From: Lachnospiraceae bacterium
GTDB taxonomy: Bacteria; Bacillota; Clostridia; Lachnospirales; Lachnospiraceae
DNA: 64,000 nucleotides
Reading direction: 5' to 3'
Assembly (NCBI GenBank): GCA_011959805.1
Contig: BLMC01000002.1
Span: 1-64,000 of the forward strand
Shown here piece after piece: positions 6,992-46,113 of the stretch (the stretch's first letter is position 1; each line of letters starts with the position of its first letter). The notes below the pieces were generated by a model that worked only from the letters and a program-made list of their open reading frames with translations, did no database searches and had not been told where the DNA came from. Made by a program: the position numbers and the translations under genes.

Positions 6992-7022
6992 TTGAGCAGG
7001 AGAATAAACCATCTCCTGCTCA
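6992..7022. terminator. Bidirectional terminator-like hairpin
   Basis: GAGCAGGAGA...TCTCCTGCTC between convergent amylase and spoVAC. Confidence 0.65.
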
Positions 7023-7025
7023 AAC

Positions 7026-7487
7026 TTACATAACACCCATCATTTTTCCAATCCAATAAATAATTCCCAGTAGCCAACTTGTAAAAATTCCATACAAAAT
7101 TACAGGACCAGCAATTGTAAAAATTTTGCTTCCAATCCCATACACTTGCCCCTCTGTCTTGTACTCAATTGCAGATGCTACAACGGAATTTGCAAATCCA
7201 GTAATTGGCACAAGCGCACCTGCGCCACCCCATTTTACTAATTTGCCATAAATATTAAATCCTGTAAACACTGCACTTAGAAGAATTAAAATCATAGAAC
7301 ACCATCCAGCTGCTGTCTCCTTTTCAATATCAAACTGATTTATTGCCATATTGACAATAAACTGCCCCACACAGCAGATAGCGCCTCCCATTATAAATGC
7401 TTTTGCCATCTGTAATGGTAGATTTGTCTTTGGCGAATTCTGTTTTACGTACTCCTGATACGCTTCCTTTTTCTGTTCTGATGCCAT
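7026..7487 (-). CDS. spoVAC: Stage V sporulation protein AC
   Basis: MASEQKKEAYQEYVKQNSPK...KAFIMGGAICCVGQ...GGAGALVPITGFANSVVASAIEYKTEGQVYGIGSKIF; start at 7487 has a good RBS. Confidence 0.85.
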   Translation of the reverse strand: MASEQKKEAYQEYVKQNSPKTNLPLQMAKAFIMGGAICCVGQFIVNMAINQFDIEKETAAGWCSMILILLSAVFTGFNIYGKLVKWGGAGALVPITGFANSVVASAIEYKTEGQVYGIGSKIFTIAGPVILYGIFTSWLLGIIYWIGKMMGVM

Positions 7488-7500
7488 CAATGTATCCTCC

Positions 7501-7950
7501 CTATATCCCTTCATAAAATCCATTCATAAAGTAAACAATTGCGCCTACAGTTTTTCCAACTGCCACTGCGACCACTGCAATGCTCACGCCCATCTTAAAT
7601 CGTACTCTCCTAGCAAAAATCGGTATTCCGTCAAGTACCTCTGAAAGCGCAATCGACAGACATCCTACAAAGATTCCTGCAAATATGCCAATCAGAATCA
7701 ATAATCCTGTCAATAAGAGATTAGAACTATTGCCAAGTGACCCTTCAATAGGAAAAACACTGAGTATATCCGCCAACACTGCACCGCCAATTAGACACTC
7801 CTCATAAAAAATCTCGCACCATGCAGTGTCCGTTCTACCTGCAAATCGTGGAACCAATCCAACGACAAACAGCACTGTAAAAACCCCTGCTGAAACCATA
7901 AGTCCCGAACTAATTCCGACAATCCACAACAAAATTAGTTTCCACACCAT
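7501..7950 (-). CDS. spoVAB: Stage V sporulation protein AB
   Basis: Membrane protein with GVFTVLFVVGLVPRFAGRTDT...LGGA-like features, between spoVAA and spoVAC. Confidence 0.8.
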   Translation of the reverse strand: MVWKLILLWIVGISSGLMVSAGVFTVLFVVGLVPRFAGRTDTAWCEIFYEECLIGGAVLADILSVFPIEGSLGNSSNLLLTGLLILIGIFAGIFVGCLSIALSEVLDGIPIFARRVRFKMGVSIAVVAVAVGKTVGAIVYFMNGFYEGI

Positions 7951-8607
7951 CTAATCCACATCCTCTTCTAGTTTCTGCCTGTCTGCCATCTGTACAATCG
8001 CTTGGTTGACATCCCGCTCATAATTGCGCATCTCCACTTCTAATGGTGTTGGGTCTGAAGTAAGACGTTTCCCCCCAACATGGTTATAAAACACAATAAT
8101 TCCCACAGCTAATCCAATAGCATATGAGATTTCAAGTGCTGTATATCCGTCGGACTCTATTCCCATCACTAACTCATAAATTCGGCTGAGCACATCTGAC
8201 AATCCGACGTCATTATGAAACGCCATAATTGTAAACGCTGAGCCAAAAAAACAAATCAATGCAACAATAGCAATCTTTACATGCGCCCACGGACCATACT
8301 TCTGTTCTGGTTTATCATGTTCTAAAGATGCCTTCTGTATAATAATATCCGTCTCTCCAATATTTTCTACAGTAATCCCCGGGCAAAGTTTAGTGATTTG
8401 TTCTATTATTTTAAGAACACTAACCACTACACGCGGCTGTCCCTCATGCCGAAATCGATGGATTTTTAATGCTTTCACTTTTGCCTTGACAGTCTCATCT
8501 TCACAGTAGACACTCGCTACATCACTCAGTTCTACATCAGGCTTTGCCAAAGCTACATTCTGTTTTGCCATTAAATACAATACTACATTTGCCACAAAAA
8601 TAACCAT
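7951..8607 (-). CDS. spoVAA: Stage V sporulation protein AA
   Basis: Soluble N-terminal domain then TM helices; adjacent to spoVAB. Confidence 0.75.
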   Translation of the reverse strand: MVIFVANVVLYLMAKQNVALAKPDVELSDVASVYCEDETVKAKVKALKIHRFRHEGQPRVVVSVLKIIEQITKLCPGITVENIGETDIIIQKASLEHDKPEQKYGPWAHVKIAIVALICFFGSAFTIMAFHNDVGLSDVLSRIYELVMGIESDGYTALEISYAIGLAVGIIVFYNHVGGKRLTSDPTPLEVEMRNYERDVNQAIVQMADRQKLEEDVD

Positions 8608-8674
8608 GCCTTTCCGAAGTGCTTCTAAAACTTTTCAAACGCTTCTTAAATACATGGTCATTATTTGTAACTAT

Positions 8675-8920
8675 TCAAATTTTATTCATAATGCTTTCTT
8701 TTCCTGTCATAATATAATCGCATCCAGTGTCCAAATAGTTGGCAATCCGCAAAAGTACATCAGCGGAAAAGCCTTTTCTTCCAACCTCAATCTCATACAA
8801 AAATTTTCCCGACAATTTTGTATGCGCCGCCATACATTCTCTTGTATAACCTTTCTCAATTCTTAACGCTTTAATTCTTGCTCCTGCTTCTTTGTATAAT
8901 TTCATTCGTTCTGCTTCCAT
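8675..8920 (-). CDS. XRE-family HTH regulator
   Basis: GARIKALRIEKGYTRECMAAHTKLSGKFLYEIEVGRKGFSADVLLRIANYLD. Confidence 0.85.
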   Translation of the reverse strand: MEAERMKLYKEAGARIKALRIEKGYTRECMAAHTKLSGKFLYEIEVGRKGFSADVLLRIANYLDTGCDYIMTGKESIMNKI

Positions 8921-9043
8921 AAAATACCTCCTTGCATTGCAATATTTCCTATCATTTTTTAGAGTAAACCATTAAAAAAGAAAATACTGCTTTTACAAAT
9001 GAAGTGTGTATATTTGAAAACAAACTGCCAATATTTTACAATA

Positions 9044-9070
9044 TTCGACTATTTATTTTTCATTTCGACA
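9044..9070. promoter_or_regulatory. Tandem Spo0A-box-like sites
   Basis: TTCGACT (9044-9050) and TTCGACA (9064-9070; reverse complement TGTCGAA is the Spo0A box consensus core), 20 bp apart, in the divergent region between the XRE gene and agrB. Confidence 0.45.
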
Positions 9071-9252
9071 TATTTATTCTAAAAATTTAAAATTGATATT
9101 TCTTTCCAATATACTATGGATAGTAGTTGTAAATCCTAATTTGATGCAATTAAAACATTAGATTTTCTTATAGATATTGTGATGCTACATTATGTTCTGG
9201 CTAAAACAGCGTTAAAAATTCCTACAACACGCAATCATGAGAAGAGGAGACA

Positions 9253-9822
9253 TTGGCATTGAATTATATAAATAATTATATTCAACAAAATATGAACCTA
9301 ACCACACGAGAGCAAAAGCTCTTAGTATACTATCTAAAATGCATATTATATGATGTTAGCAAACTAATAATTTTTTTGTTTATTTTTTATATGTTACATA
9401 TGTTGCCAGAATTTTTGCTTGCTTTTGCAAGTCTATTTCCACTTCGTACCATTTGCGGTGGACTTCATTTCCGACATTATTGGTCCTGTTTTTTATTTTC
9501 TCTTCTATATATTTTTTTGATTACTGCATTGTTTAACAAGATTATTATTCCATTTCAAGTTGGATTTATCTTACTTGTGCTTTGTAGTGTAACCATCTAT
9601 CAAATTGGACAAGTGCGGTCTCCTTCAAAACCTAGTCTCTCTGACACAGAACTGCTTCAGCGAAAGCGTATCGCACTTCTCGCAGTGGGTTGTGAAATCA
9701 TATTCACAGTGCTAGTTTATCATCAAAATTTTGCACCTATTATCTACTGGTCCGTTATTCTGCATACAGTGCAGTTACTAATAGGAAAAATAAACTTGGT
9801 TCTTTTCAATCCTACACAATAA
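9253..9822 (+). CDS. agrB: AgrB-like accessory gene regulator protein
   Basis: Multi-TM protein with AgrB signature FPLRTICGGLHFRHYWSCFL. Confidence 0.88.
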   Translation: MALNYINNYIQQNMNLTTREQKLLVYYLKCILYDVSKLIIFLFIFYMLHMLPEFLLAFASLFPLRTICGGLHFRHYWSCFLFSLLYIFLITALFNKIIIPFQVGFILLVLCSVTIYQIGQVRSPSKPSLSDTELLQRKRIALLAVGCEIIFTVLVYHQNFAPIIYWSVILHTVQLLIGKINLVLFNPTQ

Positions 9823-9893
9823 AATTTGATTTTAGTCTACAATGATTGAAAAGAGCCCTCACAAAATTTTAATAACAAAAGGAGATTTGAAAG

Positions 9894-10055
9894 ATGATTC
9901 AGAATTTTACAAAGAATGCTGTTGACAAGGTTTTATTTGCTGTTCTTTCACTAGCAGCAGTTGTATTGTTTGGTGCGTTAGACGGAATGCCTCATTGTGG
10001 TCCAAGTATGTTTTTCTTTGGAGAGCCAGAATATCCTAATCCGGACGAAGAATAA
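9894..10055 (+). CDS. agrD: AgrD-like cyclic peptide precursor, 53 aa
   Basis: MIQNFTKNAVDKVLFAVLSLAAVVLFGALDGMPHCGPSMFFFGEPEYPNPDEE: amphipathic/hydrophobic leader, Cys core, acidic Pro-rich tail; RBS GGAG at 9881; follows agrB. Below ORF-track length cutoff. Confidence 0.85.
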   Translation: MIQNFTKNAVDKVLFAVLSLAAVVLFGALDGMPHCGPSMFFFGEPEYPNPDEE

Positions 10056-10093
10056 AGAACCTTTTGAAAATAATTTTATTCTCAAAAGGTTCT
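10056..10093. terminator. Bidirectional terminator between agrD and agrC
   Basis: Perfect 12-bp stem AGAACCTTTTGA...TCAAAAGGTTCT. Confidence 0.75.
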
Positions 10094-10130
10094 CACTCTA
10101 ACATAAGTTAATAGGGGTGTATCGATTGTC

Positions 10131-11426
10131 TTAATGTGAAAACAATCTATCCAATCGAAATATAATTCTAAAACTCAAGTAATTATCTCCATAATACTGT
10201 TGATTGGTAGCATGGAGTTCTGCCTTATATTTTTGTGTCAATAGTTTTACACGCGATAGTCCAACACCCCTGTTATTGCCTTTTGTACTTTTTCCTGTGA
10301 CAAAAAACTCCTCTATCTGTGCATTGGGATACATTCTGCTAAGATTTGCAACTTCCAGTAAAAGTTTTGTATCCTCAAGAGATGACAATCTTAAGATAAC
10401 CTGATTTGGACTATGGCTTTCTCTATCTCCATTAATTAACGCCTCTACTGCATTGTCAAACAAAATGCCTGTTATTTCTATAAAATGGTGTACCGCTATA
10501 AAACGTTCTACCTTTATTGGATCAACTTCATAAAAAACATTAATGTCTAAAGATTGTGCAAAGATCAACTTAGAGTACAAAAATCCGCACACTACCGGCG
10601 AAGATTCCAGCTTTAAAAGCTTTACAATTTGTGTATCCTCCAATACTGCATCACAATATCTATTCTGTTCCGCAATCAATTCTTTTGCACTTTTCGCTGT
10701 ATAGGGAAGACACTTAATAGCATTAATGTGATTATTAAACTCGTGTTGTTTAATTCTAATTGCCGTTATTAAATCTTCAAATGTCTTTGTATACAACTCA
10801 TACATTTTTAGTTCCTCTTGTTTTTCACTTTTCTCCATCTCTGAACTCATCCATAAAACCATAACTAGCACTAAACCACCAACGCTAACAAGTGCCTGTA
10901 TCTGTACTTGTGTAGTAATATACCCATCCTTTTTATACAGTAATAGCAGTTCAAAGAAAAATAAAACAAACAATATAACAAGAAAAACTTCCTTAAACCG
11001 AGTAATTTTTGTTCCAAGATTATAGATATATTTTTCTTTCCAAAGCAAAATTAGAACAAAAATAATACAGTTTACTAAAATACCATACCATCTATAATCA
11101 TCTAAATCTATCATAAAATCTTTAAACACATAATAAACCAATATTTGCATAACTGGAATTCCAATTAACATTGTTCCAAAAACTCTTACAGTTGGTTTCC
11201 AGTTATGTGTAATTTTTATTTTTGCATAGAGAAATAGCAACGAATAAATCATAATCATTCCAACTCTGTTATCAACATACTTGCCAGAACCCATCACGAT
11301 TCCATATTCCATTATTGCTATTACAAAAAATGTCTTATTCCACTGAAATCTTTGATTCGCTGCCTTATACATAAAAGCCATCACACTTAAATACTCTGTA
11401 AACACTTCAATAAAAGTAACCATCAT
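10131..11426 (-). CDS. agrC: AgrC-like GHKL histidine kinase
   Basis: N-terminal polytopic region, RIKQHEFNNHINAIK H box, ILFDNAVEAL N box, NNRGVGLSRVK G box. Confidence 0.88.
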   Translation of the reverse strand: MMVTFIEVFTEYLSVMAFMYKAANQRFQWNKTFFVIAIMEYGIVMGSGKYVDNRVGMIMIYSLLFLYAKIKITHNWKPTVRVFGTMLIGIPVMQILVYYVFKDFMIDLDDYRWYGILVNCIIFVLILLWKEKYIYNLGTKITRFKEVFLVILFVLFFFELLLLYKKDGYITTQVQIQALVSVGGLVLVMVLWMSSEMEKSEKQEELKMYELYTKTFEDLITAIRIKQHEFNNHINAIKCLPYTAKSAKELIAEQNRYCDAVLEDTQIVKLLKLESSPVVCGFLYSKLIFAQSLDINVFYEVDPIKVERFIAVHHFIEITGILFDNAVEALINGDRESHSPNQVILRLSSLEDTKLLLEVANLSRMYPNAQIEEFFVTGKSTKGNNRGVGLSRVKLLTQKYKAELHATNQQYYGDNYLSFRIIFRLDRLFSH

Positions 11427-12142
11427 AACTCTTCCAAAAAGCGCTTTCTTCTACTACTACCAATCTCAATTTTTCTTCCATCTTTCATTGTGAGATAGCA
11501 GTTTGTATTATCAATATTGTCAATATATTTCCTGTTGACAATCATGCTTTTACTACATTGTATAAAATAGCTTTGTGGTAATTCTCGCATAACAGTTTTC
11601 AATGTCTTATATGGCATTTTGGCTTCCTGTTCTGTTGTGTATGCTGTCAGTTTTCTATGTACTGATTCTATGCAGATAATCTTGTCTGTTTCTAAGCTGT
11701 AGATAACACCATCTTTCCTATAATAGTAAAATTTAATGTCATTCTCTCCACCTACTGGTTGTCCTAATGCTCTGGAAATCTCACGTTTCACACGCTCAAA
11801 ATCAATCGGCTTCTCAATATAACTCGAACAATATAAATTCTGATACGCAAACAATTTTTCATCGATAAGGCTTGTCACAAAAATAATCGGTGTGTATTGA
11901 TATCGCTCCATGTTTCTAATCTTATCTGCAAAAACCATGCCAGAAACATCTCCTGTTTTTGATGGTTCGAGCACTATATCGACCACAAACAGATGAATTT
12001 CCTCCTCAATTGCGTATCTATAAGCTTCTGCACAATTGTCAACACAAAAAACAGCACCGGCAGACTCACACTCCTGTGTTATTTCCGCCAGTGCATTTCT
12101 GCATGCCTCATTATCCTCTATAATCAACACATTTCTTTTCAT
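11423..12142 (-). CDS. agrA: AgrA-like LytTR response regulator
   Basis: REC domain (VLIIEDNEACRNAL...LFVVDIVLE) plus LytTR domain (FIQCSKSMIVNRKYIDNID); overlaps agrC by 4 nt. Confidence 0.88.
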   Translation of the reverse strand: MKRNVLIIEDNEACRNALAEITQECESAGAVFCVDNCAEAYRYAIEEEIHLFVVDIVLEPSKTGDVSGMVFADKIRNMERYQYTPIIFVTSLIDEKLFAYQNLYCSSYIEKPIDFERVKREISRALGQPVGGENDIKFYYYRKDGVIYSLETDKIICIESVHRKLTAYTTEQEAKMPYKTLKTVMRELPQSYFIQCSKSMIVNRKYIDNIDNTNCYLTMKDGRKIEIGSSRRKRFLEEL

Positions 12143-12169
12143 TTTCCATTATCTTTTGTAATTATATAC

Positions 12170-12418
12170 TTACTTAATTTCCTGCTCCAAATCCCGGAAC
12201 ACCCCATTGTGGAAAAAATCCTCCAGAGAAACATTTAATCCGTCACAAATCATCTTGATTGTCACAATCCCAGTATTTTTACTGTTTCCCTTCATAATAT
12301 TTTTGAGTGTTGAAGGCGGCATTCCTGAAACATATGCCAGCTGCGATATTTTCATATTTTTTTCGCTGCATAAGCTCTTTATCCTGGCCACCACGGCTTC
12401 CTGTGTCTTCAATACCAT
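12170..12418 (-). CDS. XRE-family HTH regulator
   Basis: KISQLAYVSGMPPSTLKNIMKGNSKNTGIVTIKMICDGLNVSLEDFF. Confidence 0.85.
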   Translation of the reverse strand: MVLKTQEAVVARIKSLCSEKNMKISQLAYVSGMPPSTLKNIMKGNSKNTGIVTIKMICDGLNVSLEDFFHNGVFRDLEQEIK

Positions 12419-12590
12419 TCACCCCAATACAAATTTCATAAACTCTAACAATATGGTCATGCAACGATACTATGCTGAAAATTCTCTTCGCCTCCAGCAA
12501 GCGTTACTTATTATTATCTTACAAAATTTGTATTTGCTTTTTGGGCTATATATGGCCTTCTGCACAATTTTTTACATTTTTTATTCTAAT

Positions 12591-13955
12591 TTATTTTTTT
12601 GTGTCAGAATACACAAGTACCTTGCGCGCTGCCAGCCAAAAGGTAACTGCATGAACAGACAACGTAATTGTCCATGTAAGAGGATAGGATAGATACACGA
12701 TGGTTAAATTATGGTATTCTGGTATCTTAAATACAGTTGCAATCCACAACAATCGTAATACGCAGGCTCCAACCAACGACACAATCATTGGGATAACAGA
12801 ATATCCTATACCGCGAAGTGCCCCCACAAGTACATCCATAACGCCACAGAGCGCATATAGAGTACAAATAATTTTTAATCGTTCCATTCCAGCCATAACG
12901 ACATCGGTACTTGGCGAATAAATCCCAAGCAATGTCTCTCCAAATACTACTGCTAAATTTCCCAATAGTACCCCTGTCACAATTACAAAAAGTTCTCCGG
13001 CAAACAATATTTTATAGATGCGTTTATATTCTCGCGCTCCATAGTTCTGACTTGTGAATGAAATCGTCGCCTGGTAAAACGCATTCATTGCCATATAGAC
13101 AAAACCTTCAATATTTGCTGCGGCAGAATTTCCAGCAACCGCAATATTTCCAAAAGAATTGACAGCGGACTGAATCACAACATTCGACAAGGAAAATACT
13201 GTTCCCTGAAATCCCGCAGGAAGTCCAATCTGCATAATTTTTCTTAATTTTTCCTTGGAAATTGCAAGCTCTTTTAATTCAAGATGAATACTACTTTGTT
13301 CTTTTATAAGACACCGCAACACCAGAAATGCAGAAATTGTCTGCGAAATAACTGTTGCCATAGCAACTCCCGCCACGCCTAAATGACATACAATCACAAA
13401 AAACAGATTGAGCAACACATTCACAATACCAGCACTCAACAAATAATACAACGGCCGCTTTGTGTCACCAATTGCTCTTAAAATCGCACTTCCAAAATTG
13501 TACACCATCATAGATGCCATTCCAAGAAAATAAATCCTTAGATACAACACTGCAAGGTCAAGCACTTCTGGAGGAGCTTGCATCAATTTCAAAAGTTTTG
13601 GCGCACCAACCAATCCAATTACGGTAAGCAGCAAACCACAATACAAACTTAAAAGCATCGAAGTATGTACTGTTTGTTTTAAATCATTGTCTTTTTTGGC
13701 ACCGTAATACTGTGCGGTCAACACATTGCTACCTACAGAAAGCCCCACAAAAATATTGGTCAACAAATTAATTAATGCTGTGTTGGAGCCTACTGCTGCC
13801 AATGCGTTATCTCCCGCAAAACGCCCTACCACAACAATATCCGCTGCGTTAAATAACAACTGCAATATACTTGAACACATCAACGGCAGTGCAAACAAAA
13901 GCATCTTGCCATATACCGAACCATTACACATATCAATCTCATATTTTTTGTTCAT
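12591..13955 (-). CDS. MATE-family efflux transporter
   Basis: MatE pattern; start MNKKYEIDMCNGSVYGKM at 13955 preceded by GGGAGGGAA. Confidence 0.9.
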   Translation of the reverse strand: MNKKYEIDMCNGSVYGKMLLFALPLMCSSILQLLFNAADIVVVGRFAGDNALAAVGSNTALINLLTNIFVGLSVGSNVLTAQYYGAKKDNDLKQTVHTSMLLSLYCGLLLTVIGLVGAPKLLKLMQAPPEVLDLAVLYLRIYFLGMASMMVYNFGSAILRAIGDTKRPLYYLLSAGIVNVLLNLFFVIVCHLGVAGVAMATVISQTISAFLVLRCLIKEQSSIHLELKELAISKEKLRKIMQIGLPAGFQGTVFSLSNVVIQSAVNSFGNIAVAGNSAAANIEGFVYMAMNAFYQATISFTSQNYGAREYKRIYKILFAGELFVIVTGVLLGNLAVVFGETLLGIYSPSTDVVMAGMERLKIICTLYALCGVMDVLVGALRGIGYSVIPMIVSLVGACVLRLLWIATVFKIPEYHNLTIVYLSYPLTWTITLSVHAVTFWLAARKVLVYSDTKK

Positions 13956-13981
13956 TTCAATTCCCTCCCTTCCCAATTTGG

Positions 13982-15343
13982 TCACTCTACTTGCTGTACT
14001 TTAATCACTGGATTGCGAAGCGTCATAACAATCAGTGGTATCACCATTAGAAACCAAATAATAGGTTCTGTCCATATAATTCCCCAATAACCAAACAGAC
14101 GAACAAACACAAATGTGAATACTAACTTTCCTACAAGTTCAATAAAACTTGATAAAATAGGAGTTTTGGGGTCTCCAAATCCCTGCATACAATTTCTCAA
14201 AATCACAATAAACAGACATACAAGCAGAAACGACATATCCACTCTTAAATACGTTGTTCCCCAATAGATAATCTCCTCATTATCTGAACTTGTAAGAAAA
14301 CGAATTAGATATGGTGAAATCGTGTGTGCAAGAACAAACACAATGCCATCCCACACAGCGCCTAGTATCAACACACTTTTCATTCCCTGTCGAATTCTGT
14401 CATATCTTCCTGCACCATAGTTTTGTCCGCAGTATGTCGCCATCGAGGACCCAAGTACACTCACTGGAAGTCCCCATATTTCAAACATTTTTCGAGCAGC
14501 TGTATGTGCCACAATAATATTTGTCCCAAGCTGGTTAATACCACTCTGTAATACTAGCGAACCAAAATTTACAAGACTGGACATCAATCCCATAGACAAT
14601 CCACTCTCATATAACGGAATTATCTGTTTTTTTGATAAAACAAAGTGTTGTCTGGAAAGATGCAATATTGGAAATCCCTTCCAAATCCGAATCAGACAGA
14701 GCACCACCGATAACATCTGGGAAAACAATGTTGCCACTGCTGCCCCTCTTACCCCCATCTTAAAAACAAGAATCAATAAATAATCCAAAGCAACGTTAGT
14801 CAATGCTGCTATCACCAGAAAAATTAAAGGCGTTATCGAATCCCCAATCGCGCGGAGCGTATTTGCACAAAGGTTATATGCCAATGTCACAAACATTCCC
14901 CATACAAGCAGCACAATATAGGATAACGCCATCTCCAACTGCTGTGACGGCACGTTTAATAATGTCAATATTGGTCGAATAAAAACTACAACAGAGGTGA
15001 GAATCACACTCGCTGTCAGATATCCAAGCACAATAGCACCTGCCACATTCTCCTTTAACTTACGCTTTTCACCGCTTCCATAAAAACGCGCAGTTATCAC
15101 GCTAAATCCAAGGCTTAATCCATTAAAAAAACCTGTCAGAAGTGTGTACAAAATAGATACTGACCCCACTGCTGCCAACGCTTCCTCCCCCAAAATTCTT
15201 CCCACAATCTTTGTGTCGACAAGGCTGTAGCAAATTTGAAACAGATTGCCCAAAAATACCGGAATAGCAAACCGCAAAATCAGATAAATTGGTCTGCCCT
15301 CAGTAAGATTCAATGCAGTTTTTGCTGTTTTCATATCCCTCAC
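13982..15343 (-). CDS. MATE-family efflux transporter
   Basis: TEGRPIYLILRFAIPVFLGNLFQICYSLVDTKIVGRILGEEALAAVGS. Confidence 0.9.
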   Translation of the reverse strand: MRDMKTAKTALNLTEGRPIYLILRFAIPVFLGNLFQICYSLVDTKIVGRILGEEALAAVGSVSILYTLLTGFFNGLSLGFSVITARFYGSGEKRKLKENVAGAIVLGYLTASVILTSVVVFIRPILTLLNVPSQQLEMALSYIVLLVWGMFVTLAYNLCANTLRAIGDSITPLIFLVIAALTNVALDYLLILVFKMGVRGAAVATLFSQMLSVVLCLIRIWKGFPILHLSRQHFVLSKKQIIPLYESGLSMGLMSSLVNFGSLVLQSGINQLGTNIIVAHTAARKMFEIWGLPVSVLGSSMATYCGQNYGAGRYDRIRQGMKSVLILGAVWDGIVFVLAHTISPYLIRFLTSSDNEEIIYWGTTYLRVDMSFLLVCLFIVILRNCMQGFGDPKTPILSSFIELVGKLVFTFVFVRLFGYWGIIWTEPIIWFLMVIPLIVMTLRNPVIKVQQVE

Positions 15344-45405: not shown

Positions 45406-45792
45406 TTATGCCTGATCCATTCCTCTACCCATTGTTAATTTTTTTACATATGTTGCAGGTTCTTTCTTCATATCAATCATGTCCCTAAATGCATAAAGTA
45501 CCATTCTATCCTTATTGCAGGCTGCTGTGTTCTTACCGGAATCACCAATAAGATTATATCGACTCATCTGCCATATATACAAATCTGTCAATCCATATCC
45601 CTGGCAACGCACCTTGTCCATTAAATAATGATGTTCCAAATAAAATATTAATTCCTCTGTTAACTCTGAATCAAATATTAGTTCTTCCCAAAGTGCATCA
45701 CACCACTGTGCGGACTCACATGCAAGCTCTCCAAGTGCCAAAAAACCTTCATACACTTTGATACGTCTAACATCATACAATATTCCTGCCAT
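45406..45792 (-). CDS. Hypothetical protein
   Basis: Acidic helical protein MAGILYDVRRIKVYEGFLALGELACESAQWCDALWEELIF... Confidence 0.6.
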   Translation of the reverse strand: MAGILYDVRRIKVYEGFLALGELACESAQWCDALWEELIFDSELTEELIFYLEHHYLMDKVRCQGYGLTDLYIWQMSRYNLIGDSGKNTAACNKDRMVLYAFRDMIDMKKEPATYVKKLTMGRGMDQA

Positions 45793-46113
45793 TTTATTGC
45801 CTCGCTTTTCTGACATAGTATCGTTTCCAAAACAATATACTAATACACTATTTTCTTCGTCTTTAACTGCTAAGTATCAAATGTTTTATTTGCGCAAAGC
45901 AAAAGAAAAAAATGATATAGTAGCTACAACTTATACTGCTGCCTTACAAGATAATAAAACACATTTTTAGAAAATATTACTACATCATTGTAATTTTGCC
46001 TAACACTGACACAAACTAGAACGCATTTCAATCCTTGTCTAAAAAAGGTACTAAAATATGTTTGAATAATTTTATCATAGCATACGAAACGAATAAGGTA
46101 AATTAACGAAATA

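Follow-up and report, generated by a model that had tools for sequence, protein, structure and literature searches.

What signal would the agr-like genes of this Lachnospiraceae genome make, and which residue of the precursor would close its ring? The window considered here is a stretch of 64,000 nucleotides from contig BLMC01000002.1 of assembly GCA_011959805.1 (4.2 Mb, 431 contigs). A preliminary description had listed agrB, an agrD encoding 53 aa, and agrC and agrA genes converging on them, and had placed a thiolactone on Cys35. The genes form a complete quorum-sensing locus of the Agr type, and comparison with related genomes makes it rather likely that its signal is a serine lactone. The features of the locus are as follows.

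8675–8920, − strand: HTH regulator of the XRE/Cro-CI type (PF12844, 44.9 bits), divergent from agrB
9044–9115, + strand: candidate promoter region of agrB, with TTCGAC at 9044 and again 20 bp on at 9064, −35 TTAAAA (9087), −10 TATACT (9110)
9259–9822, + strand: agrB, 187 aa from TTG 9259 (189 aa from the alternative TTG 9253), catalytic-type His70 and Cys77
9894–10055, + strand: agrD, 53-aa precursor with a hydrophobic leader, core PHCGP-SMFFF and tail GEPEYPNPDEE
9996–9998, + strand: Cys35, position −8, predicted to be exocyclic
10005–10019, + strand: predicted lactone ring, Ser38 to Phe42 (SMFFF)
10056–10093, no strand assigned: hairpin between the convergent units, 12-bp stem formed by repeat arms
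10131–11426, − strand: agrC-like sensor kinase, 431 aa, seven predicted transmembrane segments, H-box HEFNNH (His228)
11423–12142, − strand: agrA-like response regulator, 239 aa, receiver (VVDI, Asp55) and LytTR domains
12170–12418, − strand: second small HTH gene, upstream of agrA (PF13443, 42.6 bits)

All four agr genes lie where the preliminary description had placed them, and their domains match the assignments. In profile searches AgrB matches PF04647 with 106 bits (cut-off 23) and, as befits an AgrB-family peptidase, His70 and Cys77, seven residues apart, are invariant in an alignment of nine relatives. The start of agrB was moved from position 9253 to the TTG codon at 9259, which is shared by the orthologues. 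AgrC is a multi-pass membrane kinase with a GHKL ATPase domain (PF14501, 33.3 bits, cut-off 22). AgrA combines a receiver domain (PF00072, 39.8 bits) with a LytTR domain (PF04397, 67.3 bits), both above the cut-offs. The curated staphylococcal models give 39 bits for AgrC (cut-off 500) and 20 bits for AgrA (cut-off 400). No solved structures matching AgrB or AgrA by sequence were found.

The gene order HTH (−), agrB (+), agrD (+), agrC (−), agrA (−) is kept in the same-genus copies with contigs long enough to show it, and agrA is kept beside agrC. The single rearranged copy, L051, has agrC on the opposite side of agrB. It might be argued that agrBD and agrCA are not cognate, the kinase sensing something else and the peptide being read by another receptor of the genome, as the units converge instead of forming one operon and the genome has eight AgrB matches. 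We find this most improbable: the BD and CA units occur together in every same-genus copy with sufficient contig reach, and close AgrC orthologues (E < 1e-70) are observed solely beside the agrB type of the window.

The divergent HTH gene lies outside the coordinates covered by the preliminary description. It is found beside all 15 copies of the window agrB type, and genus-wide 16 of its 24 relatives are within 2 kb of an agrB. By this conservation of neighbourhood it belongs to the conserved agr locus, and its product is probably a local regulator. The second HTH gene is present in most copies and absent at L053 and L054; it is conserved like the adjoining MATE genes, and its linkage to agr is less specific.

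A ribosome-binding site, AAGGAG, precedes the ATG of the small ORF after agrB by 9 nt. The product of this ORF has a leader, a core and an acidic P-x-x-P tail, with a hydrophobic segment at residues 13–31 and PEYP at residues 45–48; P-x-x-P is named as an AgrB-binding motif by PMC3901668. The preliminary description would have given up the assignment if related genomes contained no conserved small ORF after agrB. A counterpart follows agrB directly in 13 of the 15 same-genus copies, and in the remaining two the contigs stop inside agrB. Of 23 nucleotide differences between the window agrD and that of L043, a relative with an AgrB match of 73%, 18 are at the third codon position (15 synonymous and 5 non-synonymous codons). 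Residues F42, G43, E44, P45 and P48 are invariant in an alignment of 12 sequences. Judging by its conserved place and these codon patterns, the 53-aa ORF is a genuine AgrD gene under purifying selection. Homology, synteny and codon-level conservation back the preliminary description in that the locus is of the Agr type, has an AgrD of its own and is laid out convergently. The peptide has no match to AgrD models in the whole Pfam and NCBIfam libraries at E up to 1. This says more about the reach of the models than about the peptide, and automated annotation could therefore miss agrD. No relative of the peptide was found in the phage collection.

In order to locate the ring, we collected 39 distinct agrB-adjacent precursors across the order using a motif for the GE-x-x-x-P type of tail. 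To avoid bias, neither Cys nor Ser was demanded. A further 29 AgrB loci have no peptide with a GE-type motif, and the proportions given below are therefore valid for GE-type precursors only. Position −5, five residues before the GE cleavage motif, is occupied by Cys or Ser in 37 of the 39 precursors (18 Cys, 19 Ser). At all other positions from −12 to −1, Cys and Ser together account for at most nine of the 39. The relatives are built to one geometry, in which a single nucleophile is followed by three residues, mostly hydrophobic, then by an aromatic one and finally by GEPEYP. The nucleophile is Cys in most same-genus relatives (CTFFF, CVFFF, CGFFF). The window and the two genomes closest to it have Ser instead (SMFFF, SIFFF), with Cys35 three residues earlier. 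Thus the window precursor has Ser38 at position −5, where a classical thiolactone AgrD would have Cys, and its Cys is at position −8. Cys35 aligns with an extra Cys of G014 (LPYCCP-CVFFF), where the ring Cys is also present. Ser without any core Cys is observed in G023, the second copy of G014 and G106. The lactone precursor of S. pseudintermedius has the same geometry: RIPTSTGFF is followed by DEPEIP, and the AIP is RIPT[STGFF] (PMC4774685). This geometry and the composition of the −5 column lead us to expect a lactone on Ser38. The likeliest signal is a lactone ring of five residues, [SMFFF], that carries a tail, and the thiolactone on Cys35 proposed earlier is probably wrong, as the alignment assigns Cys35 to the exocyclic tail.

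Several observations weigh against a lactone on Ser38. The thiol is the stronger nucleophile, and all three members of the window lineage have kept Cys35; a Ser precursor is not processed by the AgrB of S. aureus (PMC10482373); no AgrB residue was found to track Ser versus Cys; and the survey was confined to GE-type precursors. AgrB could cut at the same place and Cys35 could then close an eight-residue thiolactone [CGPSMFFF], in agreement with the presence of Cys35 in the three closest genomes and with the easier attack on a thioester by thiols than by hydroxyls. The nine-residue macrocycle of GBAP (PMC12312760) would be a precedent, although that ring is itself closed by Ser. Since Cys at −8 is observed in just four of the 39 precursors, as against 37 with Cys or Ser at −5, and since the aligned Cys of G014 coexists with a ring Cys, we consider this thiolactone unlikely. 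Even less likely, and purely speculative, is a two-step reaction, in which the lactone forms on Ser38 and is then attacked by Cys35 at or near the N-terminus, yielding either a ring in rearranged form or a species linked by a disulfide. PMC11297923 reports the conversion of AIPs with an N-terminal ring Cys to homodetic cyclopeptides, and in G347, too, a Cys lies close to the Ser (DCASFLFF). However, such a reaction requires cleavage of the leader near Cys35, and esters react less readily than thioesters.

If the signal is the Ser38 lactone, the following scheme may be suggested by analogy with the Agr family (PMC12312760). Cleavage of AgrD by AgrB would fall between Phe42 and GEPEYP and leave the core held by AgrB as a thioester. 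Attack by Ser38 would yield the five-residue ring, and Cys35 would probably be part of its N-terminal tail. The leader would be trimmed by another peptidase and the peptide exported. AgrC would sense the lactone and phosphorylate AgrA, which would raise the expression of agrBD and other targets, with the divergent HTH protein as a likely second regulator of the locus.

The AgrB tree of the 39 precursor loci, in which several rows are on long branches of unsure placement, requires at least eight changes between Ser and Cys by parsimony (bootstrap range 7–9), of which four are forced by well-supported branches. In the genus set Cys is encoded by TGT and Ser by AGT or AGC, and thus the change from TGT to AGT takes one base. 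G014 has two copies of the window agr type on two contigs (L045 and L053), one with Cys (CVFFF) and one with Ser (SLFFF). AgrB residues were also compared between the Ser and Cys types in six contrasts; the true labels ranked 14 of 32 among the label flips, which is no better than chance. As the S. aureus enzyme refuses the Ser precursor, the AgrB proteins of this clade must differ in a way not seen, or else the peptides are processed otherwise. There is about an even chance that ring chemistry is an evolutionary switch in the Lachnospirales: among GE-type precursors of this AgrB clade, Ser-lactones would be about as frequent as Cys-thiolactones, and the one would several times have given way to the other, even within a single genome that has two copies, perhaps limiting cross-talk between neighbouring systems. 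Lactone Agr signals, such as those of S. pseudintermedius and GBAP, are listed as exceptions. If the alignment is right, they are widespread in one of the major orders of gut bacteria, and predictions or probes that seek Cys would overlook or wrongly draw roughly half of the clade's signals. The close Ser/Cys pairs could be used to ask what lets AgrB and AgrC use either chemistry. The present analysis adds the corrected ring residue, the high share of Ser in this clade with its repeated exchange for Cys, and the constant HTH partner. Nothing specific on Lachnospiraceae AgrD or serine rings was found among the open-access papers searched, and given this limit no priority is claimed.

Among known systems, those of S. 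pseudintermedius and S. intermedius share with the window the AgrB, AgrD, AgrC and AgrA parts, a Ser five residues before the cleavage site (PMC4774685, PMC12312760) and an acidic tail (DEPEIP there, GEPEYP here). However, they form an agrBDCA operon instead of convergent units and their core sequence is unrelated; the window has an additional Cys in the tail and the divergent HTH gene. The S. aureus system has the same four families and P-x-x-P in the AgrD tail, but differs in its Cys thiolactone, single operon and RNAIII. The contrast with the staphylococcal agrBDCA operon drawn in the preliminary description holds, as agrBD and agrCA converge here; separate operons have already been described in clostridia (PMC12312760). 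Indeed, clostridial systems, e.g. that of C. acetobutylicum, have signal and sensing genes in two units, agrBD and agrCA (PMC12312760). There, however, a Cys ring is listed, whereas in the window the units converge, Ser is predicted and the HTH gene diverges from agrB. Fsr of Enterococcus faecalis also makes a serine lactone, GBAP (QN[SPNIFGQWM]), and has AgrB/C/A-like parts (PMC3673130, PMC12312760), but its ring has nine residues, fsrD lies inside fsrB and the genes form one operon. The window locus is not of the staphylococcal type, with a single agrBDCA operon and RNAIII. No match to RNAIII was observed among the Rfam hits at positions 7000–14000 of the window at E up to 1; the weak hits in this region are all on the hairpin between the convergent units and far below the cut-offs.

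This hairpin had been described as a terminator shared by the two units. The 12-bp stem was confirmed, with folding z-scores relative to shuffled sequences of −4.4 on the + strand and −7.0 on the − strand. However, the terminator scan calls it on the − strand alone, that of agrC, and no such fold is present at this place in the nearest relative, L043, so that the shared role is only half borne out. Promoter-like matches such as the candidate agrB promoter occur at chance density; its second TTCGAC and its −10 box are kept in L043, and we treat the region as a lead only. A repeat search found no direct repeats for AgrA binding. Upstream of agrB, the Spo0A-box-like word TGTCGAA is observed in 7 of 14 regions, with 0.56 expected. 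It was picked by eye, stems from approximately two lineages and is not more frequent than the commonest 7-mers of shuffled sequence, and it was set aside as a lead only. The genes spoVAC, spoVAB and spoVAA (7026–8607, − strand) adjoin the agr locus of the window, and spoVA genes are near agr in some relatives too. Taken with the TGTCGAA boxes, this makes a link between agr and sporulation possible. L046 and L047 have a long inverted repeat between the HTH gene and agrB (GTATGCGAAATCGCGT ... ACGCGATTTCACATAC in L046), a possible operator that is not seen in the window.

Other types of agr locus were also observed. The eight AgrB matches above the cut-off in the window genome (G000) are on contigs named 2, 35, 41, 58, 98, 111 and 129, and at two of them another type of AgrD, ending in QPKAPKELAKFRRAK or QPKAPKELARYRRQK, is encoded upstream of agrB. 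On contig 29 of G094 (L028/L113), two tandem agrD-like ORFs have cores RSVVTTW-SEPDYP and RSPISSW-GEPDYP, with neither Cys nor Ser at −5 and Ser at −6. Finally, on contig 93 of G232 (L069/L083, approximately 45443–45979), the AgrB frame continues into an AgrD-like tail (KIPSIIFF-GEPEYPTAKKKDDKKKK), and the AgrB profile match stops at position 152 of 187. This may be a fusion of AgrB with AgrD, reminiscent of FsrB/FsrD.
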